The notes under the pieces were generated by a model, which saw only the letters and a list, made by a program, of their open reading frames with translations, had not been told where the DNA came from and did no database searches. A stretch of 64,000 bases of DNA from Candidatus Handelsmanbacteria bacterium. GTDB lineage: Bacteria; Latescibacterota; UBA2968; UBA8231. Location of the stretch: positions 1-64,000 of the forward strand of contig VGJS01000009.1 of assembly GCA_016867395.1 (NCBI GenBank). The letters run 5' to 3'. Of the stretch, positions 2,618 through 23,619 are shown piece by piece. A program made the position numbers and the translations under genes. How positions within the stretch are numbered: position 1 is the stretch's first letter; the number at the start of each line of letters is the position of its first letter.

Positions 2618-3413
2618 TCCCCTGCGGGCAAGGCTCTTTGGTTATGGGGTGCCGTACCGGGCGAGGCTGGCTGGGGCCGGCCACCTGCTGCCCCTGGAAA
2701 CTAGCCCAGCCCGGGAAGCCGGGGACCTGGCCGGGGAGTTGGCTGCCCTGTGCGGCCAGCCGGCGTGGGCGCCAACAGATCCGGGGGAGTGGGCCACCTG
2801 CGTGCCCTTTGGCAGGTGCGGGGTGAAAAACCTTCCGCTGGAACATCTTAAAGTGTTCAACTTGATGGAGGGGTGGCTGGAAGTGTTGGATTCAAATGGG
2901 GTTCAGGAACTCCCGCTGCGCGAGGGGGAAGGGGTCCACATCCGCCCGCGCAGTGTGGTCCGGCTGCGGGCCCGGCCCCGGCCGGGCCGGAGGGTGCTGG
3001 TGGCCTTCCAGACCCAGGACCGCACCCCGCTCATGGGTAATGCCGCGCCCTTCACCCTGGACGGCCATGCCCCCGACGAATACGCGGCCCGGCTGGGCAA
3101 AGCCCAGGAAGCCTTTGTCGCGGTGCGGGCGCTGGCCCAGGCCGATCCCAACGCCTACAGGGCTGCCCTGGAGGGCTTTTTCGGGCGCATGGCACGGAAA
3201 GTGGAGGGCGACCCCCAGGTGGCCCAGACCCAGGCCCAGGCCCGGCAGGAGGGGGCGTACGGGACCGACAGAGAGGAGGAACTCTTTGCAAGGCAGCAGG
3301 GGCTGCTCAGCCCGGAGGTGATCAGCCGCATCCGCCAACAGGACCCGGAACTCTTCCGCTTTCCGGGCATGTTCGGGGGGATCACCACTTTGTTCAGGAT
3401 AAACAACGCATAG
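2610..3413 (+). CDS. Unknown protein with a possible cupin-like barrel
   Basis: I do not recognise this 267-residue protein. The GTG start at 2610 overlaps the stop of the DegT gene, which argues for translational coupling. Residues about 70-135 alternate short hydrophobic strands with Gly and Arg (LPLREGEGVHIRPRSVVRLRARP), and this could be a cupin-like beta barrel, but the His/Glu metal triad of cupins is not evident. Residues about 150-267 are mostly helical and Gln-rich. There is no signal peptide or membrane segment. It sits between a DegT enzyme and a MocA-type gene, so a role with them in small-molecule metabolism is possible but not shown. Confidence 0.6.
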   Translation: MADPLRARLFGYGVPYRARLAGAGHLLPLETSPAREAGDLAGELAALCGQPAWAPTDPGEWATCVPFGRCGVKNLPLEHLKVFNLMEGWLEVLDSNGVQELPLREGEGVHIRPRSVVRLRARPRPGRRVLVAFQTQDRTPLMGNAAPFTLDGHAPDEYAARLGKAQEAFVAVRALAQADPNAYRAALEGFFGRMARKVEGDPQVAQTQAQARQEGAYGTDREEELFARQQGLLSPEVISRIRQQDPELFRFPGMFGGITTLFRINNA

Positions 3414-3424
3414 GAGATTTTACG

Positions 3425-4407
3425 TTGGCCAAGAGCAAGATACGCATCGCGTTAATCGGCTGCGGCGGCAATATGCGCGGCGCCCATGTGCCCCGGCTGC
3501 ACGAGGACGCCAAGGTCGAACTGGTGCCGGTGATGGACACCGAAGAAACCCAGGCCCGACTTCTGATGGTTAGGTACGGTAAGTAGGTGCCCTACTACAC
3601 CGGCCACAAGGCCAGTTGCGTAAAGCGCAGTTGGACTCGGTCTTCATCACTTCCCCCCATGCCTCCCACTACGCCCAGGTCAAGGCACCCCTGGAGCGGG
3701 ATCTGCATGTGCTGGTCGGAAAACCCCTGACCATCACCCCGGCCAAGGCTTGGGCTCTGATCGAACTGGCCCGCAACCGCGAGCGCTTCCTCCAGGTGCG
3801 TTACCAGCGCAATTGCCCCTTTCCGCAGGTCTATGCGCGGGAATTGTTTGCGAAGGGGGCTTTAGGTGAAATTAGAAGCTTGGTGGCCTTTGTGACCCAG
3901 AACTGGAAGGGGGTGCGGGGCTGGCGCCTGGTCCCGGAGTTGTCGGGCAGGGGGATGTTCTTCGACACCGGCAGCCACCTGGTGGCCTCCACCTTGTGGG
4001 TGACGGGTTTGCAGGCCGAGCGGGTGAGCGCTTTTATCGACAACGAGGGCAAGGCGGTGGATATCAAGGCCGTGGTCAATGTGCGCTTCAAAGACGGGGC
4101 CCCGGGCACCCTCAACACCTTTGGCAGCGCCAGCCGGCACGACGAGCGCCTTGCCATCCACGGCAGCAAGGGCTGTCTGGTCTTCCACCTGCACCAGTGG
4201 CAGGTCAAGACCGTGCTGCCCAACGACCAGCCCCTGGAGGTTCCCCCCCGCATAAAAAAGGACGACCCGGACGCGGCCCTCTTCCGTTGGATCCGCAACG
4301 GGGGCAAGGGGTACGCGGAGCCCTGGTACGCCCTGGAGGTGGCCCGGTTTTCGGACGCGGCCTACCGCTCGGCGCGGCAGGGCAAGCCGGTGAAGGTGGC
4401 CCGCTGA
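3425..4407 (+). pseudogene. Gfo/Idh/MocA family oxidoreductase, interrupted
   Basis: Starting at TTG 3425 the frame reads KIRIALIGCGGNMRGAHVPRL, a Rossmann start typical of the family. An in-frame TAG at 3584-3586 follows RYGK, and the homology then continues one frame over from about 3610 as LRKAQLDSVFITSPHASHYA. The catalytic-domain Lys appears in VGKPLTITPAKA, where EKP is more usual. The rest reads well to TGA 4405-4407. The total length is one base short of a multiple of three, so a single lost base near 3610 would repair the frame but not the TAG. Members use NAD(P) to oxidise or reduce sugars and their derivatives. Broken gene or two base errors are both possible. Confidence 0.75.
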
Positions 4408-13491: not shown

Positions 13492-14532
13492 ATGGCAGAC
13501 AGCGGCGCGACGCTCATCGCCCAGCGCAAGGAGCGCTGGGCACGTTTCTACCAGCCCTCCCATCGCGGGCACCTGCTGCTGATCCGGCTGGCCGAGGAGG
13601 TGCCTCCCCGGCCCCTGCCGCATCCGGACCGGCGGGGGGAACGGGTCGAGTGGGCGTGGCAGCGGTACCAGGCCCAGCTCGAACGCCTGGCCTGGCTCGA
13701 AGACGACAGCCTGCCCCACCTCGACGTGTACACCGGCACCGAGATCTTCGCCGCGGCCTTCGGCTGTCCGGTGCACCGCCCCGAGGACCAGATGCCCTTC
13801 GCCCTGCCGCTGATCCGGCGGGCCAGCCAGGTATCCTCTCTCCGGGTGCCCTCGCTCGACGAGCCGGGTCTGGCCCTGCTCTTAGGCATGGCCGACGAAC
13901 TGCGGGCCCGCGCCGGTCCCCGGGCCCTGCTCAAGCTGGTGGACATCCGGAGCCCGATGGACATCGCCGCGCTGATCTGGGACAAGTCCTCCTTCTATGC
14001 GGCCCTGCTCGAAGCGCCCGAGGCGGTGCGGGAACTGGCAGCAAAGGTGAAGGAACTGCTGACCGCCTTTCTCGACGAGTGGTTCGCCCGGTACGGCCGC
14101 GAGTACCTCGCCCACTACCCGGACTACTATATGGAGGGGGGGATCACCCTGTCGGAGGACGAGATCGGCGCGGTGGGCCCTCAGGTCTACGCCGAGCTGT
14201 TCCACCCCGAGTTGGTCGAGTTGTCCGGGCGGTACGGGGGCATCGGCGTCCACTGCTGCGCCCACGCCCGGCACCAGTGGGCCGGCCTGGCCTCCCTGCC
14301 GGAGCTGCGCTTGCTCAATCTGGTCCAACCGCCTCCGGTGCTGGCGTCGGCCTATGGGTATCTTGCCGCCAGGGCCGGCCAGATGCACAGCTGGTGCGGC
14401 GACGGGGACGTGCTCACCTGGGCCGAGAGCCTGCCCGCAGGCAGCCGGGTGGTGTTGCAGGCGCCGGCGGCGAACCTGCGCGAGGCCGAGGCGCTGGTGG
14501 AGCGTTTCCGCAGCCTGCCCGAAAGGAGCTGA
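13492..14532 (+). CDS. Uroporphyrinogen decarboxylase (UroD)-like protein 1
   Basis: This 346-residue protein has the UroD/MtaA TIM-barrel pattern: DVYTGTEIFAAAFGCPV near residue 80, a middle LLKLVDIRSPMDIAALIW helix and a C-terminal GAVGPQVYAELFHPELVEL segment. The string IGVHCCAHARHQW carries His and two Cys where MtaA/MtbA methyl-corrinoid transferases place a zinc-binding HxC motif. True haem-pathway UroD enzymes do not need that motif. This points to methyl transfer rather than porphyrin decarboxylation (inference). No corrinoid protein is encoded nearby. It is 3 bases from the second UroD-like gene. Confidence 0.75.
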   Translation: MADSGATLIAQRKERWARFYQPSHRGHLLLIRLAEEVPPRPLPHPDRRGERVEWAWQRYQAQLERLAWLEDDSLPHLDVYTGTEIFAAAFGCPVHRPEDQMPFALPLIRRASQVSSLRVPSLDEPGLALLLGMADELRARAGPRALLKLVDIRSPMDIAALIWDKSSFYAALLEAPEAVRELAAKVKELLTAFLDEWFARYGREYLAHYPDYYMEGGITLSEDEIGAVGPQVYAELFHPELVELSGRYGGIGVHCCAHARHQWAGLASLPELRLLNLVQPPPVLASAYGYLAARAGQMHSWCGDGDVLTWAESLPAGSRVVLQAPAANLREAEALVERFRSLPERS

Positions 14533-14535
14533 GGC

Positions 14536-15681
14536 ATGCCTCCCCTCAAGTGGGCCACCCACGCCGACCTGGCCATCCGCAAGACCCCCAGCGTAGGCCG
14601 CGAGGAATACCTCGACCACATGACCTTCCTCCGCAACGAAGGGCCCCTCTTCACCGAGATCTTCGGCCCCATCATCGGGCTTAAGGAGGAGTGGCAGGAG
14701 CAGGGAGCCACTCCGGAGGAGCTGGATTTCTCGGCCTTCCGGTACCACTGCGAGGGACGAGGCATGGTGCCAGTGAACACCGGCCGGCTGGGTGGGTATA
14801 CGGAGGAGGTGCTGGAGGAGAATGCCGAGCACCGGATCTGGCGCGACGCGTACGGCCGCACCATGAAGATGCCTCTGGGCCGGGCCACCCTCGGGTTGAC
14901 CCTTGACCATCCGGTTAAAACCATGGACGACTGGCGGGGCATCCGACACTGGTACGAGTACTCCTCGGAGCGGCTGGCCGGCGACTGGGAATCAAGGGCG
15001 CGGGAACAGCTGGCCGAAGACCGGGTGCTGGGGATCTCCAGCCCCGGCGGGTTTGACGAGCCGCGCCAGTTGCTGGGGGAGGAGACGCGGTGCGTGGCCC
15101 ATTGCGAGGATCCGGAACTGGTCCACGACATGCTGCAGGTCATGGGCGAGACCGCCTTCCAGGTGCTGGCGGAGGTGACCCGCAGGGTGCGGGTGGACGT
15201 GCTCTTCGTCCACGAGGACATGGCCGGCAAGTCCGGGCCCCTGGCCGGACCGGCGCAGATCGCCGAGTTTATCGCCCCGTACTACCGGCGCTGCTGGGGC
15301 CTCTTGCAGGAGCGGGGGGCCCGGCTCTTTGACAAGGACAGCGACGGGGACATGAACCCGGTCATCGAGTCCTTCCTCCAGGCCGGGATCAACTGCATGC
15401 ACTCCATGGAGCCGGCCGCCAACATGGACATCGTTGCCCTGCGCGCCCGCTACGGCCGGCGGCTGGCCTTTTACGGGGGACTGGACAAGCACGTGCTGCG
15501 CCGTTCCCCCGAGGAGATCACCCGGGAGCTGGAGGCCAAGATCCCGCCGATGGTGAAGAGCGGGGGCTGTGTGCTGGCCCTGGACCACCGCATCCCCAAC
15601 GGCACCCCGCTGGAAAACTACCGCTTCTATATCGCCAAGGTGTGGGAGATCCTGGAGCGGGAAGGGGCGGCCCTTGGCTGA
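14536..15681 (+). CDS. Uroporphyrinogen decarboxylase (UroD)-like protein 2
   Basis: This is a 381-residue protein. The C-terminal half is a clear UroD-family match: a DVLFVHEDMAGKSGPL segment, then DSDGDMNPVIESFLQAGINC, MHSMEPAANMDIVALRARYG and RLAFYGGLDKHVL. In corrinoid methyltransferase relatives the first position usually holds HSCG-type zinc ligands; here it is Asp-rich, so metal binding would differ from protein 1. The pair could form a heterodimer or act on successive substrates. Expression is coupled on both sides: 3 bases from the gene upstream and an 8-base overlap with the kinase gene downstream. Confidence 0.75.
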   Translation: MPPLKWATHADLAIRKTPSVGREEYLDHMTFLRNEGPLFTEIFGPIIGLKEEWQEQGATPEELDFSAFRYHCEGRGMVPVNTGRLGGYTEEVLEENAEHRIWRDAYGRTMKMPLGRATLGLTLDHPVKTMDDWRGIRHWYEYSSERLAGDWESRAREQLAEDRVLGISSPGGFDEPRQLLGEETRCVAHCEDPELVHDMLQVMGETAFQVLAEVTRRVRVDVLFVHEDMAGKSGPLAGPAQIAEFIAPYYRRCWGLLQERGARLFDKDSDGDMNPVIESFLQAGINCMHSMEPAANMDIVALRARYGRRLAFYGGLDKHVLRRSPEEITRELEAKIPPMVKSGGCVLALDHRIPNGTPLENYRFYIAKVWEILEREGAALG

Positions 15682-16531
15682 GTTTCCCCTGCCGGCACGG
15701 TTGGCGGAAAAGTGCCGCCAGGATCCCGACAAGGCCCAGTGGCTGGCCCGTTTGCCGGCCGTGGTGGCGGAACTGGTGGAGCGCTGGGGCCTGCACCTAA
15801 GTGCCCCCTACGAGCAGGAGGTGAGCTGCGCCTGGGTGGCCCCGGCCACCTTGGGGAACGGCGCCCCGGCGGTGCTCAAGGTGGGGTTGCCGCACATGGA
15901 GGCTCGGGAGGAGATCGAAGGACTGTGCTGTTGGGACGGGGAGCCCACCGTCCGCCTGCTGGAGTCCGACAAGGAGTGCAATGCTCTGCTATTGGAGCGC
16001 TGCGAGCCGGGCACCCCGCTGCGCGCCCTGCCCGAACCCGAACAGGATGTGATCTTGGCCGGGCTGCTGGGTCGGCTCTGGCGCATCCCGCCGGAACCCC
16101 ATCCCTTCCGGCCCCTGGCCGAGATGACCGCGTACTGGAGCGAGGAGTCGCTGGCAGGGGCAGACACCTGGCCCGATACGGGTCTGGCCCAGGCAGGCTT
16201 GGAGCTTTTCTGGGAACTGCCGCTCAGTGCCCCAGACCACGCGCTCCTGGCCACGGACCTGCACGCCGGCAATGTGCTCTGTGCCCAGCGCCAGCCCTGG
16301 CTCGTCATCGATCCAAAGCCCTTTGTCGGCGACCCGGCCTTTGACCTGACCCAGCACCTGCTCAACTGCAAGGGGCGGCTGGCGGCCGATCCTGCAGGAT
16401 TCATCCGCCGGCTTGCCGAGTTGTGTGGGGTGGAGGAGGAGCGGGTGCGTTTGTGGACCTTCGCCCGCCTAGCCGCAGAGCACGATTCCTGGCACGGCAC
16501 CCATGCCCTTACCCGGGCCCTGGCACCCTGA
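15674..16531 (+). CDS. Aminoglycoside/hydroxyurea phosphotransferase-like kinase
   Basis: TTG at 15674 overlaps the end of the UroD-like gene and gives 285 residues. The protein-kinase-like fold of the APH(6)/hydroxyurea kinase family is seen in LLLERCEPGTPLRALP, the catalytic loop LATDLHAGNVLCA and the metal site VIDPKPFVGDPAFDLTQHLL. Such enzymes phosphorylate small amino or hydroxy compounds with ATP. In this operon a metabolic substrate is more likely than an antibiotic (inference). A start further upstream inside the UroD gene is possible in frame but would not match the family. Confidence 0.78.
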   Translation: MAEFPLPARLAEKCRQDPDKAQWLARLPAVVAELVERWGLHLSAPYEQEVSCAWVAPATLGNGAPAVLKVGLPHMEAREEIEGLCCWDGEPTVRLLESDKECNALLLERCEPGTPLRALPEPEQDVILAGLLGRLWRIPPEPHPFRPLAEMTAYWSEESLAGADTWPDTGLAQAGLELFWELPLSAPDHALLATDLHAGNVLCAQRQPWLVIDPKPFVGDPAFDLTQHLLNCKGRLAADPAGFIRRLAELCGVEEERVRLWTFARLAAEHDSWHGTHALTRALAP

Positions 16532-16548
16532 TCACAACTGGAGGAAGC

Positions 16549-17175
16549 ATGTCGAGTTTCAAGGAGATCATCCGCACCGAAGAGGAGTTGCGCGTCATCA
16601 TGGGCCATCCCACGCAACGCGCAGTGGACAAGACCATCGCCGCCCTCGACGAGCACTGCCGGGCCTTCATCGCCTCCTCGCCCTTCCTGCTCATCGCCTC
16701 CAGCGACGCGCAAGGTCGGCACGACGTCTCGCCCAAGGGGGACCCGCCCGGCTTCGTGCAGGTGCTCGACGAGCGCACCCTGGCCATCCCGGACCGGCCG
16801 GGCAACCGTCGGGCCGACACCTTTGCCAATATCCTCCAGCAGCCCCAGGTGGCCCTCTTGTTTTTCATCCCCGGCAAGGAAGACACCCTGCGGGTGAACG
16901 GCAGGGCCCAGATCGTGCGGGACTTGGCCCTGCGGGAACACATGGCCGTGCAGGGCAAGGTCCCGGACCTCACCCTGGTGGTGGAGGTGCAGGAGGCCTT
17001 CATCCACTGCCCCAAGTGCATGGTCCGCTCCCAGCTGTGGGAACCCGAACACTGGCCCAGCCTGAAGGAGGTACCCACCATGGCCCAGACCTTCGTGGCC
17101 CATGCCAAGATCGACCAGCCTGTGGCAGAGGTGCAGGCCTCCATCGACCAGGCGGTGAAGGAACGCCTTTACTGA
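16549..17175 (+). CDS. PPOX-class FMN-dependent flavoprotein (pyridoxamine oxidase-like)
   Basis: ATG 16549 follows GGAGGAAGC and gives 208 residues. The split-barrel flavin fold is shown by SPFLLIASSDAQGRHDVSPKGDPPGF, IPDRPGNRRADTFANILQ and VALLFFIPGKEDTLRVNGRA. This is the pattern of the MSMEG_1061 family of PPOX-type proteins rather than of true PdxH. Members bind FMN or F420 and reduce or oxidise small molecules. The C-terminal part has FIHCPKCMVRSQLW, a Cys pair common in this group. It lies 17 bases after the kinase and 10 before the glycosidase fusion. Confidence 0.82.
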   Translation: MSSFKEIIRTEEELRVIMGHPTQRAVDKTIAALDEHCRAFIASSPFLLIASSDAQGRHDVSPKGDPPGFVQVLDERTLAIPDRPGNRRADTFANILQQPQVALLFFIPGKEDTLRVNGRAQIVRDLALREHMAVQGKVPDLTLVVEVQEAFIHCPKCMVRSQLWEPEHWPSLKEVPTMAQTFVAHAKIDQPVAEVQASIDQAVKERLY

Positions 17176-17185
17176 GAGGAAGACG

Positions 17186-19690
17186 ATGAGCGACCGGACG
17201 GAGTGGTTGGCCCGCAAGGGCTGGGGGGTGTTCTGCCATTGGCTGGGCGCCGCGCCCAGCGCGGATGGAGGCGCCGGCTTGAGCGCCGAGGAGTGGAACG
17301 AATGGGTGGATGCTTTCGACGTGGAAGGGCTGGCCGGCCAAATGGCAGGGGCAGGAGTGCCCTATTTCCTTCTCACCATCGGCCAGAACTCCGGTCATTA
17401 CCTGGCCCCCAACCCGGTGTACGACGAGTTGGTGGGCATCCATCCCAGCAAATGCGCCCGCCGCGACCTGGTGGCCGATCTACACGCCGCCCTTGCCAAG
17501 CGCGGCATCGACCTTTTGGTGTACCTGCCTAGCGGGGCCCCGGCCGCGGATAGGGTGGCGGTGGAGCGGTTGGGCTGGGAATGGGGCTTCGAGAGGGATT
17601 GGCCCGCCTGGGGCACGGGGCGCAGGGGCAAGCGGCTGGCCGAGTTCCAGCACAAATGGGAGCAGGTCGTCGCGCACTGGTCGCGGCAATGGGGCACCAA
17701 GGTGAAGGGCTGGTGGATCGACGGCTGCTACTTTGCCGACGAGATGTACCGCCACCCCGGAGAGCCCAACTTCGCCAGCTTTGCCGCCTCGCTACGGGCC
17801 GGCAACCCGGAGGCCATCCTCGCCTTCAATCCGGGGGTGCTGGTGCCGGTCATCTGCCACAGCGAGGAGGAGGACTACACCGCCGGGGAGATCGCCGGGG
17901 CCCTGCCCGAATGCCCTGGCCCCTGGGTGGAGCGCAAAGGCCACCGTGCCCGGTATCATTTGCTTAGCTATCTGGGCCAGAGTTGGTGCCAGGGGTCGCC
18001 GCGCTTCCCTGCAGAACTTGCCGTGGGCTATACCCGCCACGTTACCGGCAAAGGCGGGGTCATCACCTGGGACGTGCCTATAGACCGCAAGGGGCTAATC
18101 CCCGGGGACTTCCTGCGCCAGTTGGAGGCCATCGGCGCGGCGCAGACAAAGAGCTGGTTGGAGGGCGGCCCGGTGCCCGAGGCGGCGGTGCGCAGCAGCC
18201 GGGCTCTGCGCGAAAGATTGCTGGCCGACCCCACCCGGCCGCGTTACCACTTCTGTCCTCCCGAGGACCAGGGCATGCCCGGCGACCCCAACGGGGCCTT
18301 CTTCGCCAATGGCCGCTATCACCTTATGTACCTCTACAACCGCAGCGGCTCGGGTTTCTGCTGGGGCCATATCTCCAGTGCGGACCTGGTCCACTGGCGG
18401 CACCACCCCGACGCCATCGGCCCGGGGGATGGGGACGAGGGCTGTTTCAGCGGCGGGGCCTTTGTGGACAAGGAGGGCATTGCCACCCTTTCGTACTGGA
18501 TGCTGTGGGGGGACAAGGGCATCGGCCTGGCCCAAAGCCGGGGCCCAAAGTACGATATCTGGACCAAGCTGGCGGCCAATCCGGTGATCAAGTCCACTGA
18601 ATGGGGTGTCACCGAGATGAAGGACGCACAGGGCCAAAGCTTCTGCGTGGGCTCGGCCGACCCATCCAACATCTGGAAGGAGAATGGGCGATACTACATG
18701 CTCACCGGAAATCTGCTGGTGCTCAACAAGCTGGGCCGCGCCCCGGAGGCCCCCCCGTCCGAGCAGGGGGACCGGCTTTACCTCTTTGTCTCCGACGATC
18801 TCAAAACGTGGGAGTACCAACACGTCTTCTACCAGCGTCGGCCCGAATGGACCCAGGCCAGCGAGGACAATATGTGTCCCAGTTTCCTGCCCCTGCCCGC
18901 CAGCCCCGAGGGCGGGCCGCCCAGCGGCAAACACCTGCTGCTCTTCATCAGCCACAACCTCGGCTGCCAGTACTATGTGGGCACCTACCGCGATCTGCGC
19001 TTCTATCCAGAGACCCACGGCCGCATGACCTGGGTGGACAACACCTATTTCGCCCCCGAGGCCCTGATCGACGGCCAGGGCCGGCAGATCATGTGGTCCT
19101 GGCTGCTCGACAACCCCGAGGGGGAAAAGGAGCGGGGCTGGTCCGGGGTGTACGGCCTGCCTCGCACCTTGTGGGTGGGGGAGGACCACACCTTGAGGAT
19201 GGCCCCGGTGCCGGAGTTGGAGATGCTGCGCGGCTCCCAGCGCCGCTGGCGGGCCGGGGCTTTGAAGGAGGGCCAGGCCCGGGTGCTGGAGGGGATCGAC
19301 GGGTGCTCCTGCGAGCTGGAGCTGGAGATCGAGGTGGGGGATGCGGACCGCTGCGGGATCAAGGTGCGGGCTGGTGGGGACGAGGAGACCTTGCTCTACT
19401 ACGACCGCCCGGCACAGGAACTGGTCTTCGACAGCACCCACAGCGGAAACATGGGCCGGCGGGTGGTGGAGCGGGCGCCCCTGGCCCTGGGGCGGGGCGA
19501 GGCGCTGCGCCTGCGGGTCTTTGTGGACCAGTCGGTGGTGGAGATCTTCGCCAACCAGCGCCAGGCCATCGGCCGGCGGGTGTACCCGGCGCAGGCGGAC
19601 AGCGACCAGGTGGTGCTCTTCGCCGAGGGCGGCGCGGCCCGCCTGAAGCGCGCAGTGGGCTGGGAGATGGCGCTGGCCAATCCCTATTGA
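17186..19690 (+). CDS. GH29-like / GH32 fusion glycosidase
   Basis: This is an 834-residue protein without signal peptide. Residues about 1-340 resemble an alpha-L-fucosidase (GH29) barrel: KGWGVFCHWLG, YFLLTIGQNSGHY and a WWIDGCYF strand where the nucleophile Asp would lie. Residues about 355-830 form a GH32 five-blade propeller plus its beta-sandwich: GDPNGAFFANGRYHLMYLYN near 366 carries the nucleophile Asp, ADPSNIW stands in for the RDP motif, and VDNTYFAPEAL and FVDQSVVEIFANQR are typical. The EC motif that supplies the acid/base Glu is replaced by NMCPSFLP near 562. Fructan hydrolysis is thus uncertain; another glycoside or a binding role is possible. Its last 7 bases overlap the convergent FMN oxidase gene. 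Confidence 0.8.
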   Translation: MSDRTEWLARKGWGVFCHWLGAAPSADGGAGLSAEEWNEWVDAFDVEGLAGQMAGAGVPYFLLTIGQNSGHYLAPNPVYDELVGIHPSKCARRDLVADLHAALAKRGIDLLVYLPSGAPAADRVAVERLGWEWGFERDWPAWGTGRRGKRLAEFQHKWEQVVAHWSRQWGTKVKGWWIDGCYFADEMYRHPGEPNFASFAASLRAGNPEAILAFNPGVLVPVICHSEEEDYTAGEIAGALPECPGPWVERKGHRARYHLLSYLGQSWCQGSPRFPAELAVGYTRHVTGKGGVITWDVPIDRKGLIPGDFLRQLEAIGAAQTKSWLEGGPVPEAAVRSSRALRERLLADPTRPRYHFCPPEDQGMPGDPNGAFFANGRYHLMYLYNRSGSGFCWGHISSADLVHWRHHPDAIGPGDGDEGCFSGGAFVDKEGIATLSYWMLWGDKGIGLAQSRGPKYDIWTKLAANPVIKSTEWGVTEMKDAQGQSFCVGSADPSNIWKENGRYYMLTGNLLVLNKLGRAPEAPPSEQGDRLYLFVSDDLKTWEYQHVFYQRRPEWTQASEDNMCPSFLPLPASPEGGPPSGKHLLLFISHNLGCQYYVGTYRDLRFYPETHGRMTWVDNTYFAPEALIDGQGRQIMWSWLLDNPEGEKERGWSGVYGLPRTLWVGEDHTLRMAPVPELEMLRGSQRRWRAGALKEGQARVLEGIDGCSCELELEIEVGDADRCGIKVRAGGDEETLLYYDRPAQELVFDSTHSGNMGRRVVERAPLALGRGEALRLRVFVDQSVVEIFANQRQAIGRRVYPAQADSDQVVLFAEGGAARLKRAVGWEMALANPY

Positions 19691-20875: not shown

Positions 20876-20905
20876 TTGACAAGAGGAGGGTCAGGGTGGT
20901 AAATA
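20876..20905 (+). promoter_or_regulatory. Sigma-70-type promoter of the SDR epimerase gene
   Basis: TTGACA at 20876-20881 and TAAATA at 20900-20905 are separated by 18 bases in otherwise GC-rich DNA. This is a near-consensus housekeeping promoter. Transcription would begin near 20912, leaving a 28-base leader that ends in AAAGGAG before the TTG start at 20940. Confidence 0.6.
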
Positions 20906-20939
20906 AGCGAAATCCCAACCCATCGCGAAAGGAGCGGAT

Positions 20940-21734
20940 TTGTCGCCGGTATTCAGGGTTTTGCTGCTGGGCGGCCGGGGCAACATCGGTTCCGGCCTGC
21001 GGCGGTACCTGCCGCAACTCGATGCGCGGTACCGCTTTGTCTCCATCGACCTGCCAGGTGCGGTCAACCGCATCCCGGTCAATGGCACAACGGAGGAATT
21101 GGTCGACCTCGATTTCTTTGCCCATCCTCAGGCCCTGCGCCGGCAGCTGCAGGGCGTCGACCTAGTGGTGTACCTGGCCCGGCAGGGCGGCCTGGCCGAG
21201 ATGAACCAGATGACCGACCTGGTGTACGAGTCAGTGCTGGAACTGGAGCCGGCCCCGCTGATCGTAGGGTCCAGCTCGGTGCACGCCGTGGACGCGGCCT
21301 ATCTGTGGTACGAGAAAGACCCCTATCCTCTCATCGCCCAGCGCCGCTTCGCCGAACTGGGCGACTGGCCGCACCTCCCAGCCACCCTGCCGGCCTGCCC
21401 GATGAACGACTACGGCTCCGAGAAGGCCTACGTCGAGGCCTGGACCCACCAGCTGGCCCTGCGGGGAAGGCCCGCAGTGGCGGCGCGCTGGGGCGGGGTC
21501 AACGCCGAGAACCGCATGACCAGGGAGGTTGCCTACTTCTCGGTGTGGTGCCACCAGGAGGACGCAGCCCGCTTCGTCCATGCCTGCTTCACCGCCCACC
21601 GGGAGGGCCGGCTGAGGAGTGGGGCTCACTACTTCGTCATCTCCGACAATACCTACAGCATCTTCGACATCGCCACCCCGGCCGCCGAGGTCGGGTACAG
21701 GCCGGTCCACAATGCCGAAGTGTTCTACCGCTGA
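20940..21734 (+). CDS. NAD-dependent epimerase/dehydratase (extended SDR)
   Basis: TTG 20940 sits 6 bases after AAAGGAGCGG; the 264-residue product begins FRVLLLGGRGNIGSGLRRYLP, the Rossmann Gly motif of extended SDR enzymes. VSIDLPGAVNRIPV, DLVVYLARQGG, a GSSSVHAV Ser-containing strand and the active-site YGSEKAYVEAW (YxxxK) follow. Length is at the short end for epimerases. The likely reaction is oxidation, reduction or epimerisation of a sugar or its lactone with NAD(P). It stands alone with its own promoter; what follows downstream is decayed. Confidence 0.85.
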   Translation: MSPVFRVLLLGGRGNIGSGLRRYLPQLDARYRFVSIDLPGAVNRIPVNGTTEELVDLDFFAHPQALRRQLQGVDLVVYLARQGGLAEMNQMTDLVYESVLELEPAPLIVGSSSVHAVDAAYLWYEKDPYPLIAQRRFAELGDWPHLPATLPACPMNDYGSEKAYVEAWTHQLALRGRPAVAARWGGVNAENRMTREVAYFSVWCHQEDAARFVHACFTAHREGRLRSGAHYFVISDNTYSIFDIATPAAEVGYRPVHNAEVFYR

Positions 21735-21829
21735 GCCGAAGGGCGCGGCTTTCCTTCCGGCAAGAACTTTCTTGCTGTACTCAGTGGAGGGGCCTCACGC
21801 AGCATGAGTTTAGCCGGGTCGGTGGTGTG

Positions 21830-23619
21830 GTGAATCGCGACGGCAAAGCGGCAGACAGGAAGATCCCTCCCCTATGGCGCATCGGGCTGGTCGTGTTGGC
21901 GCTGAACCAGGGAACACCCGCCCAGGCCTCGAAGGGGGACCTGAACCGCTTTTTCTCCGAGGAGGTGCAGATCGTCACCGCCGACCGGCTGCCCTGCGCG
22001 CTGCTCCAGGTGCCGGCCAGGGTCTACGTGATCCCCGGCGCGGCGGTGCAGACCGCGGGCGGCCAGCGCCTGTGGGAGGTCCTGCGCCGGGTTCCCGGAG
22101 TCGAGATGATGATCCCGCGGGCGTAACAGGGTGAGGTGAATATTTGCGGCCTGGGCAAACCCCTTAGCAACCGCACCCTGATCCTGCTCGACGGGCGGAC
22201 CGTCCTCAACAGCTTCTTCGACTTCGTCCTCTGGGAAGCCATCCCCGTCCTGCCCGATCAAATCGACCGTGTCGAAATCGTCGAAGGCCGTAGTTCAGCG
22301 CTGTGCGGCGCCAACGCCTTGAATGGCGTGATCAACATCATCACCAAGGCGCTCGCAAAGATGCACGGGGCGCAGGTGCAGGTGGGCGCCGGGCAAGGGC
22401 GCAGCCGGTCGGCCAGTGCGCTGTGGGTGGGCAACGCAGGCCGCGTCAGCTATCGCCTGGGCGCATCCTGGCGTCGGGCAGGACAGTTCGAGCACTCGGA
22501 CCGCTTGGCCACCCCGGTCGCCAGGGTGCGCGGGCAGGTGGACCGGACCCGCAACCAGCTGACCTCCGGTGTCACGGGGACCACGGACCCCTCCTTCACG
22601 GCCCGGAACGTGCGCCTGGATGCTATCTACCACCGGGTGAAACTGGGCGGGTTCTGGAACTAGGGTTCGGGAAGGTTCGACCACTTCGGCCTGTTGAAGG
22701 AACGCTTGGTCGAGTACGGCATCGGGGAGCTGAGCGCGCAGCGGCGCTTCGCTCTTCCGACCGGCAACCTGCTGGTCGCCGGCGCGAGCGTCCGCCGCCT
22801 CGACATGCGCGCGGGCGCCTTCGCACATCGGTCGGTGGACCAGAGCATCTGGTCGTTGTATTTCGAGGACGAATGGCGGATCCGGCCCCGCCTCAGCGTC
22901 GTGTCCAGCGGTCGCCCGGACTAGTACGAGCTGGCGGGCGCGGCGTTCTCCCCGCGCCTCGCCGCGATATACACCCCCTGGCCCGGCCAGGTGTTCCGGG
23001 TCGCAGTCGCCACGGCGTTCCGCTATCCCAACCTGAACGAGAATCTACTCGACCTGGAACAGCAACTGCCCGTGCCGCGGTTCCTCCCGCCGAACGCTGG
23101 TTTCACCGGCATGTCTGTGTCGATCCACGGCAATCCGGACCTGCGGAAGGAGCGGATCCGCCTTGCCGAGGTGGCGCACCGGGGGCGCTTCGGCACCCTG
23201 GAAAACACCCTTGCCGGCTACCACTGCCGGCTGCGCGACATCATCGTATTCCAGGCCCACCCACCTGGCAGAGATCGCGCCGCCGGTCTTCCACCTGGAG
23301 GATGCCTTCGCCAACCCGGGCAAAGCCTGCGCCTGGGGCCTGGGGGTGGGGGCGGAGTGGCGCTGCCGTCCCTGGCTTTCCATGGCGGCCAACTACTTCT
23401 TCCTGCGCCTGCGGGGGTCCGGGGATCCCCGCAGGCGCGCGCCGGGAAAGTCCCGCCCACAAGGGCAATGCCGGGGTGGACCTGCGCCGGGGTCGCCTGG
23501 CGGCGGGTCATAACGTAGTTGTGGAGCGGGTCAATCAAGGCCGACTGCGGGCCGTCAACCGGGTGATGATCTCCGGCCGTGGTTCCGGCGCGCGGACCGC
23601 GGTGGGCGGCCAGGTCTGA
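21830..23619 (+). pseudogene. TonB-dependent outer-membrane receptor, decayed
   Basis: Signal-peptide-like IGLVVLALNQGTPAQA, a FFSEEVQIVTADR start, a plug domain (LWEVLRRVPGVEMM; LSNRTLILLDGRTVLNSFFDFV; QIDRVEIVEGRSSAL; NGVINIITKALA) and barrel segments (FSPRLAAIYTPWPGQVFRVAVATAFRYP cut here into two blocks, and HKGNAGVDLRRGRLAAG at the end) make the family certain. The frame is cut by TAA 22124-22126, TAG 22661-22663 and TAG 22922-22924 and shifts near 23265 and again before 23460. Conserved residues are also lost: NICGLG for NIRGLG, SALCGANA for SALYGANA. This argues for real decay rather than read error. It would have taken up a siderophore, cobalamin or glycan. Confidence 0.85.

Follow-up and report, generated by a model that had tools for sequence, protein, structure and literature searches.

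The window analysed here is a stretch of 64,000 nucleotides of one contig (C9) of the 4.9-Mb genome of a Candidatus Handelsmanbacteria bacterium (Latescibacterota). Its forward strand carries an open reading frame that, from its ATG start, encodes a protein of 834 amino acids in which a GH29-like N-terminal half is joined to a GH32-type C-terminal half (Table 1). Upstream of the fusion lie two adjacent, different genes of the uroporphyrinogen-decarboxylase (URO-D) family, a small-molecule kinase-like gene and a PNPOx-type flavoprotein gene that ends ten bases 5′ of the fusion start. Open reading frames related to the flavoprotein gene also stand just upstream of the fusion in the three nearest related loci (L017, L018 and L019). 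Several open reading frames of the window had no Pfam match, and DUF2961 was absent from those scanned. When read by eye, the N terminus of the fusion protein displays no evident signal peptide.

Table 1. Features of the fusion gene and of the genes upstream of it, in window coordinates.
Feature	Position	Strand	Basis or observation
Two URO-D genes	13492-15681	+	
Kinase-like gene	15662-16531	+	PF04655 (aminoglycoside/hydroxyurea kinase family), E 5.8e-32
PNPOx-type flavoprotein gene	16543-17175	+	
Whole fusion gene	17186..19690	+	834 aa; open reading frame; both halves under purifying selection
GH29-like half, residues 1-320	17186..18145	+	hhalign; PDB profile matches; Pfam PF01120 in relatives
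D179 (GWWIDG), expected GH29 nucleophile Asp	17720..17722	+	aligned with WFD Asp of GH29
E235 (DYTAGE), candidate acid/base	17888..17890	+	invariant in 9/9 family members; putative role
Join, residues 321-347	18146..18226	+	between GH29-like half and GH32 propeller
GH32 propeller, Pfam PF00251, residues 355-674	18248..19207	+	E 3.5e-35
D367 (PGDPNG), nucleophile Asp, kept	18284..18286	+	Asp in 93/93 branch members covering the site
A491-D492 (SADPSN; SADPSNIW)	18656..18661	+	RDP Arg lost, transition-state Asp kept; no Arg 96/96, Asp 94/96
E560-D561, acidic pair new to the branch, proposed acid/base	18863..18868	+	pair in 96/96
M563-C564 (SEDNMCPSFLP), canonical EC Glu replaced	18872..18877	+	Glu 0/96 branch, 51/51 canonical
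H590 (ISHNLG), His invariant in the branch	18953..18955	+	96/96 branch, 1/51 canonical
F622, place of YASK Tyr	19049..19051	+	never Tyr in 96; Tyr in 43/51 canonical; profile alignment with YASK Tyr
GH32 C-terminal sandwich, Pfam PF08244, residues 677-826	19214..19663	+	E 8.7e-29

Residues 348–834 comprise a GH32-type propeller and sandwich, and both Pfam domains score above their cut-offs (PF00251, 122.5 bits against 22.1; PF08244, 101 bits against 21.9). An AF2 model of this half is mostly good (blocks mostly 75–97), with weak stretches near residues 410–416 and 648–651, and superposes on solved GH32 enzymes with a Z score of 36.3 and an rmsd of 2.6–3.0 over 417–453 residues, displaying the five-bladed propeller and β-sandwich of the family. 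The displayed Foldseek and VIA matches concern the GH32 half alone. The motifs NMCPSFLP, ADPSNIW and DPNG are present where a sequence-only reading had placed them, and that reading correctly identified a protein in which the nucleophile Asp is kept while the EC Glu and the RDP Arg are lost. The Asp of the WMNDPNG motif persists as D367 without the WMN portion, the RDP motif retains its Asp with Ala (A491) in place of Arg, and Met (M563) occupies the position of the EC-motif acid/base Glu. By sequence the protein groups with GH32; by its catalytic motifs it departs from the family in two of the features examined and would not be filed as an ordinary GH32 β-fructosidase.

PMC3360783 assigns the role of acid/base to the EC Glu, describes the RDP Arg, called completely conserved in clan GH-J, as protonating that Glu, and places the Tyr of the YASK motif beside it. 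GH32 β-fructofuranosidases of this clan (plant invertase 2ac1, Thermotoga 1uyp and Frischella 7vco) have in common with the window protein the propeller and sandwich, the nucleophile and transition-state Asp residues and the C-P that follows the EC position, at up to 31% identity in structural alignment. The window protein and its relatives differ from these enzymes in lacking the EC Glu, the RDP Arg and the YASK Tyr, in place of which they have a fixed (E/D)D pair and a His. A 60-residue query around the motif found no solved relative sharing it among PDB sequences at E up to 10, though a query this short provides weak evidence; residue-by-residue comparison covered the best 5 of 36 PDB GH32 sequences.

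For the N-terminal half, a profile built from nine relatives matched GH29 genes with an hhalign probability of 97.8 over 277 columns. By hmmsearch it matched PDB α-L-fucosidases, the best at E 1.7e-34, with another 55 distinct sequences at E of 0.1 or below, bearing out the earlier suggestion of an α-L-fucosidase-like N-terminal half. The window sequence scores below the PF01120 cut-off of 25.2 bits (14.8 bits as the whole protein, 19.6 bits for the half alone); eight of the nine family members match this Pfam entry at E up to 1, the best at 4.7e-13. Profile homology to GH29 α-L-fucosidases, with 9pnj as the best solved match, extends over most of the half and aligns the nucleophile Asp; the window protein differs from these enzymes in its score below the Pfam cut-off and in carrying GQNSG for KHHEG in the hhalign alignment, so that the His pair is not kept. 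This KHH pair belongs to the sugar pocket of GH29. A model of the N-terminal half alone was not reliable (pLDDT 37, with four sequences). On the strength of the profile matches, we regard residues 1–320 as a divergent GH29 relative. PMC10154630 describes a conserved GH29 nucleophile Asp, an acid/base that varies between subfamilies and a family that also holds α-glucosidases and α-galactosidases; given this breadth, fucose is not a safe guess for the substrate of this half. A search of open-licence literature for papers on PDB codes 9PNJ and 9PNK found none.

The altered GH32 motifs recur well beyond the window. Thirty-eight related loci emerged from one scan of genome contigs, with GH32 halves 55–87% identical by blastp and labels that include Verrucomicrobia, Lentisphaerae, Armatimonadetes, Planctomycetes and Bacteroidia. 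All members covering these sites display a third motif of ADP or SDP type without Arg and the pattern (S/N/T)ED(N/D/S)MCPSF. Distant relatives at about 33–44% identity follow the same logic, pairing HDPC with GEDCAVPDFF, FDPH with EEDCACPDFF, WDPH with FEDISCPDFF and FDPC with GDDGACPYFW. Canonical plasmid controls, further relatives and, by way of the loci from other phyla, the GH32 genes found in 20 genomes were added to these sequences. In a first set, position 560 was Glu in 70 and Asp in 20 of 90 branch sequences, position 561 was Asp in all 90, and the EC Glu was found in 0 of 90 versus 16 of 16 canonical sequences. Neither set is random, the first having been assembled largely by similarity to the window protein and the second drawing on the 30 loci returned by its own scan and 18 picked by hand among the listed places. 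Three entries read as non-GH32 (L082, L016 at 2745-4160 and L052 at 20897-22909), fragments shorter than 250 residues (first set) or 200 residues (second set, two rows) and exact or contained duplicates (five in the second set) were dropped before counting.

In the enlarged set, 147 of 149 GH32-type sequences fall into two mutually exclusive motif states. Fifty-one carry the RDP Arg and the EC Glu and no acidic pair; the other 96, the window protein among them, have neither residue, and every one has the (E/D)D pair just upstream and a His at the position of H590. This branch of 96 sequences spans six phyla. The column of the YASK Tyr is occupied in the branch by Phe (59), His (24), Gly (6), Asn (5), Ser (1) and Ala (1). 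Two branch members, L076 and L102, have the third-motif Asp replaced as well (AGAPC), one canonical sequence, L174, is the only one with His in the H590 column, and the nucleophile column holds Gly in three canonical rows. Two sequences fit neither state. In L136, from the genome of L041, the nucleophile has changed along with the RDP Arg and the EC Glu (WMSNPGG, AHDP and YDSP) and the acidic pair is missing too, so that it is likely a dead enzyme, and L162, from the genome of L032, combines SDP with an intact ECP as the sole sequence of the 149 with the Glu and without the Arg. Open-licence literature yielded no papers on GH32 with Latescibacterota, with Planctomycetes, or with GH172 and GH29, and no title or abstract opening among the other papers listed described such a branch. 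A tblastn of phages gave only matches below 60% identity.

Trees built with the motif columns removed place the branch on one side of a single split. The first tree separates 55 branch from 13 other rows with an SH-aLRT support of 96, and the second separates 52 from 41 canonical and 2 other rows with a support of 99, both being quick trees with some long branches. Rows shorter than 300 or 330 residues and rows more than 85% or 80% identical were left out. In the second tree, the branch adjoins a Streptomyces sequence (L094) and two other sequences with Arg and Glu. The association between the lost and the gained residues is perfect within the two states, yet it rests on one change: a single change in the tree makes the perfect association one event, and its weight lies in conservation since that change over many diverged lineages.

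The fusion itself is narrow. The three nearest loci also encode it in a single frame, L017 and L018 at 83% identity to the window protein over its full length and L019 cut off at a contig end; two of the three are labelled Latescibacterota and L019 is labelled Gemmatimonas. Within the genus of the window, G001, G002 and G004 carry the fused form (truncated in G004), G003 gave no match to it, and genomes of this genus are the only ones in which it was found, in line with the earlier expectation that such a fusion is rare. Both halves are under purifying selection, with dN/dS values in three pairwise comparisons of 0.14–0.17 for the N-terminal half and 0.17–0.22 for the GH32 part. An N-terminal extension typical of the GH32 branch begins at about residue 329, inside the join. 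Free-standing copies of the N-terminal half occur at 60% (L058), 52% (L059 and L060) and 66% identity (L061, partial), and two genomes with such copies (G049 and G053) also carry a branch GH32 on another contig, indicating that the fusion joins genes that exist apart. The changed motifs are not tied to the fusion; they mark a whole GH32 branch in several phyla, mostly without a GH29-like part. A tie between the odd motif and the GH29 fusion is ruled out by the occurrence of the fusion in one genus and of the motif in six phyla. Damage to the EC motif or sequencing error is likewise ruled out, given a motif state common to 96 sequences and a fusion repeated in relatives.

The GH29-like partner is specific to the genus; other branch members have either LamG modules or no partner. 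A scan of ten proteins covered what lies N-terminal of the GH32 domain: seven of nine close branch members have LamG, accompanied by PF06439 in the L020 member, and two have none, while the tenth, the second branch GH32 of L023, has LamG too. A second GH32 is found in 9 of the 38 loci. Around a Bacteroidia member (L037), 20 kb hold a true GH29 (E 3.9e-96), GHL6, GH20, a second branch GH32, DUF2961 and the close GH32 homologue itself, together with a GntR regulator, ThuA, an oxidoreductase and an aldo-keto reductase, and open reading frames related to several of these neighbours recur in L038, L040, L041, L042 and L052. Elsewhere, a canonical GH32 in L020 is accompanied by genes for a periplasmic sugar-binding protein and a permease, the GH32 of L021 is flanked by a melibiase gene on one side and a GH95 gene on the other, and in L123 an apiosidase-like gene follows the GH32. 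In L121, an arabinofuranosidase-type gene lies just upstream of a free GH29-like gene. The stop-to-stop frame of this PF06964 gene (L121:5351-8015, forward strand) overlaps the free GH29-like frame, which is 60% identical to the N-terminal half of the window protein, by two bases.

These arrangements resemble operons of the difructose dianhydride I pathway that combine GH172 with GH32, for which PMC8605356 equates DUF2961 with GH172. In both L037 and L027 a DUF2961 gene lies near a branch GH32, the one in L027 being on the other strand, and DUF2961-related open reading frames are found in L038, L040, L041 and L042. The GH32 partner in those operons is described in PMC8605356 as a putative β-fructofuranosidase. 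The neighbours, which were chosen by us for scanning and not exhaustively, suggest glycans containing fructosides or other furanosides, in some cases along with an α-linked deoxyhexose or galactose.

Our proposal for catalysis builds on what was observed: the homology, the motif states, which segregate together on the tree, the match of the GH32 half to the family fold and the selection acting on both halves. The EC Glu, the RDP Arg and the YASK Tyr are lost together in the branch, and D367 and D492 stay. We favour, with a probability of roughly 0.55, an active retaining furanosidase in which E560 or D561 is the acid/base. The C-terminal GH32-fold part would attack the anomeric carbon with its usual Asp, D367, as D492 of the third motif holds the sugar. 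The trio of EC Glu, RDP Arg and YASK Tyr would have been exchanged for E560 and D561, three and two residues upstream, and H590, all three of which are predicted to line the pocket. The proton donor would be E560, slightly ahead of D561, in what is expected to be a retaining furanosidase. The claim that the acid/base Glu is lacking thus stands for the EC Glu, which is absent, and gives way for the site as a whole, as exactly that branch has a fixed acidic pair and a fixed His; the acid/base centre has probably been replaced. The loss of the EC Glu and the RDP Arg bears out the suggestion that cleavage needs another acid.

Alignments divide on which residue of the pair would serve. With an opening of three residues before the CP, HMMER places E560 on the catalytic Glu of 7vco, 6num and 3pig, but the Glu of plant invertase is matched by M563 rather than E560, which counts against E560. 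Of the two candidates, D561 is kept more strictly and E560 aligns better with bacterial enzymes. The Asp at position 560 in 20 of 90 sequences and the absence of the third-motif Asp from L076 and L102 count against a moved acid/base.

That E560 aligns with the Glu of bacterial GH32 enzymes also fits a simpler account, in which E560 is the usual Glu, offset by a three-residue insertion before CP yet occupying its normal place, in a protein with ordinary β-fructofuranosidase activity. The distance from the conserved W542 to position 560 is 17–18 residues in 81 of 84 sequences, as it is to the Glu in three canonical plasmid sequences (17 in two and 18 in one), and canonical GH32 and sugar importer genes adjoin the branch member in L020. 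However, canonical distances from W542 to the Glu range from 11 to 26, which makes this register argument weak, and a plain insertion does not explain why the Arg and Tyr partners are also lost while the His and D561 are fixed. We consider this account rather unlikely.

A catalytically dead GH32 half, acting as a sugar-binding or scaffold module for the GH29-like half, would explain the absence of the canonical acid/base, and L136, devoid of nucleophile, Arg and Glu, illustrates that truly degenerate GH32 proteins exist elsewhere. However, the nucleophile Asp persists in 93 of 93 branch sequences and the Asp of D492 in 94 of 96, the new positions are fixed across six phyla, and most branch members have no GH29-like partner to serve. 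A moved acid/base is favoured over a dead enzyme because an inactive protein is not expected to hold a new acidic pair and a new His constant in every member, and we consider the dead-module reading improbable. Slightly less probable still is an acid supplied by H590, the substrate or a bound ion, with E560 and D561 binding a substrate group or metal: H590 is as invariant as D561 and, by profile alignment, adjoins the place of plant invertase D239, yet carboxylates are the usual acid and we know of no precedent in clan GH-J for an acid from His, substrate or ion. According to PMC3360783, D239 contacts the glucose of sucrose.

Returning to the active furanosidase with E560 or D561 as its acid/base, the window protein would be a two-domain glycosidase, probably cytoplasmic. 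Its substrate would be fructoside-like or another furanoside, and a substrate differing from that of the usual GH32 enzymes is plausible. The halves may cooperate, with the GH29-like barrel most likely removing the adjoining sugar of the same oligosaccharide. What appears to be new is a branch of the GH32 fold whose acid/base surroundings have been replaced, represented in the window by a protein that is fused, in this genus alone, to a GH29-like domain.

More tentatively, and with clear doubt as to the whole, one deep change of the acid/base from Glu-Arg-Tyr to an acidic pair and His may have accompanied a move from β-fructofuranosides to another furanoside or leaving group. The branch would then represent a family-level catalytic variant of clan GH-J that spans six phyla under a generic annotation and is joined in the window protein to a GH29-like barrel with the role of cleaving off the adjacent sugar. 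The EC Glu and the RDP Arg are the residues by which catalysis in GH32 and clan GH-J is explained. If the proposal is true, this large branch would be a natural experiment on an acid/base catalyst moving within one fold, and many environmental GH32 genes would be annotated differently.
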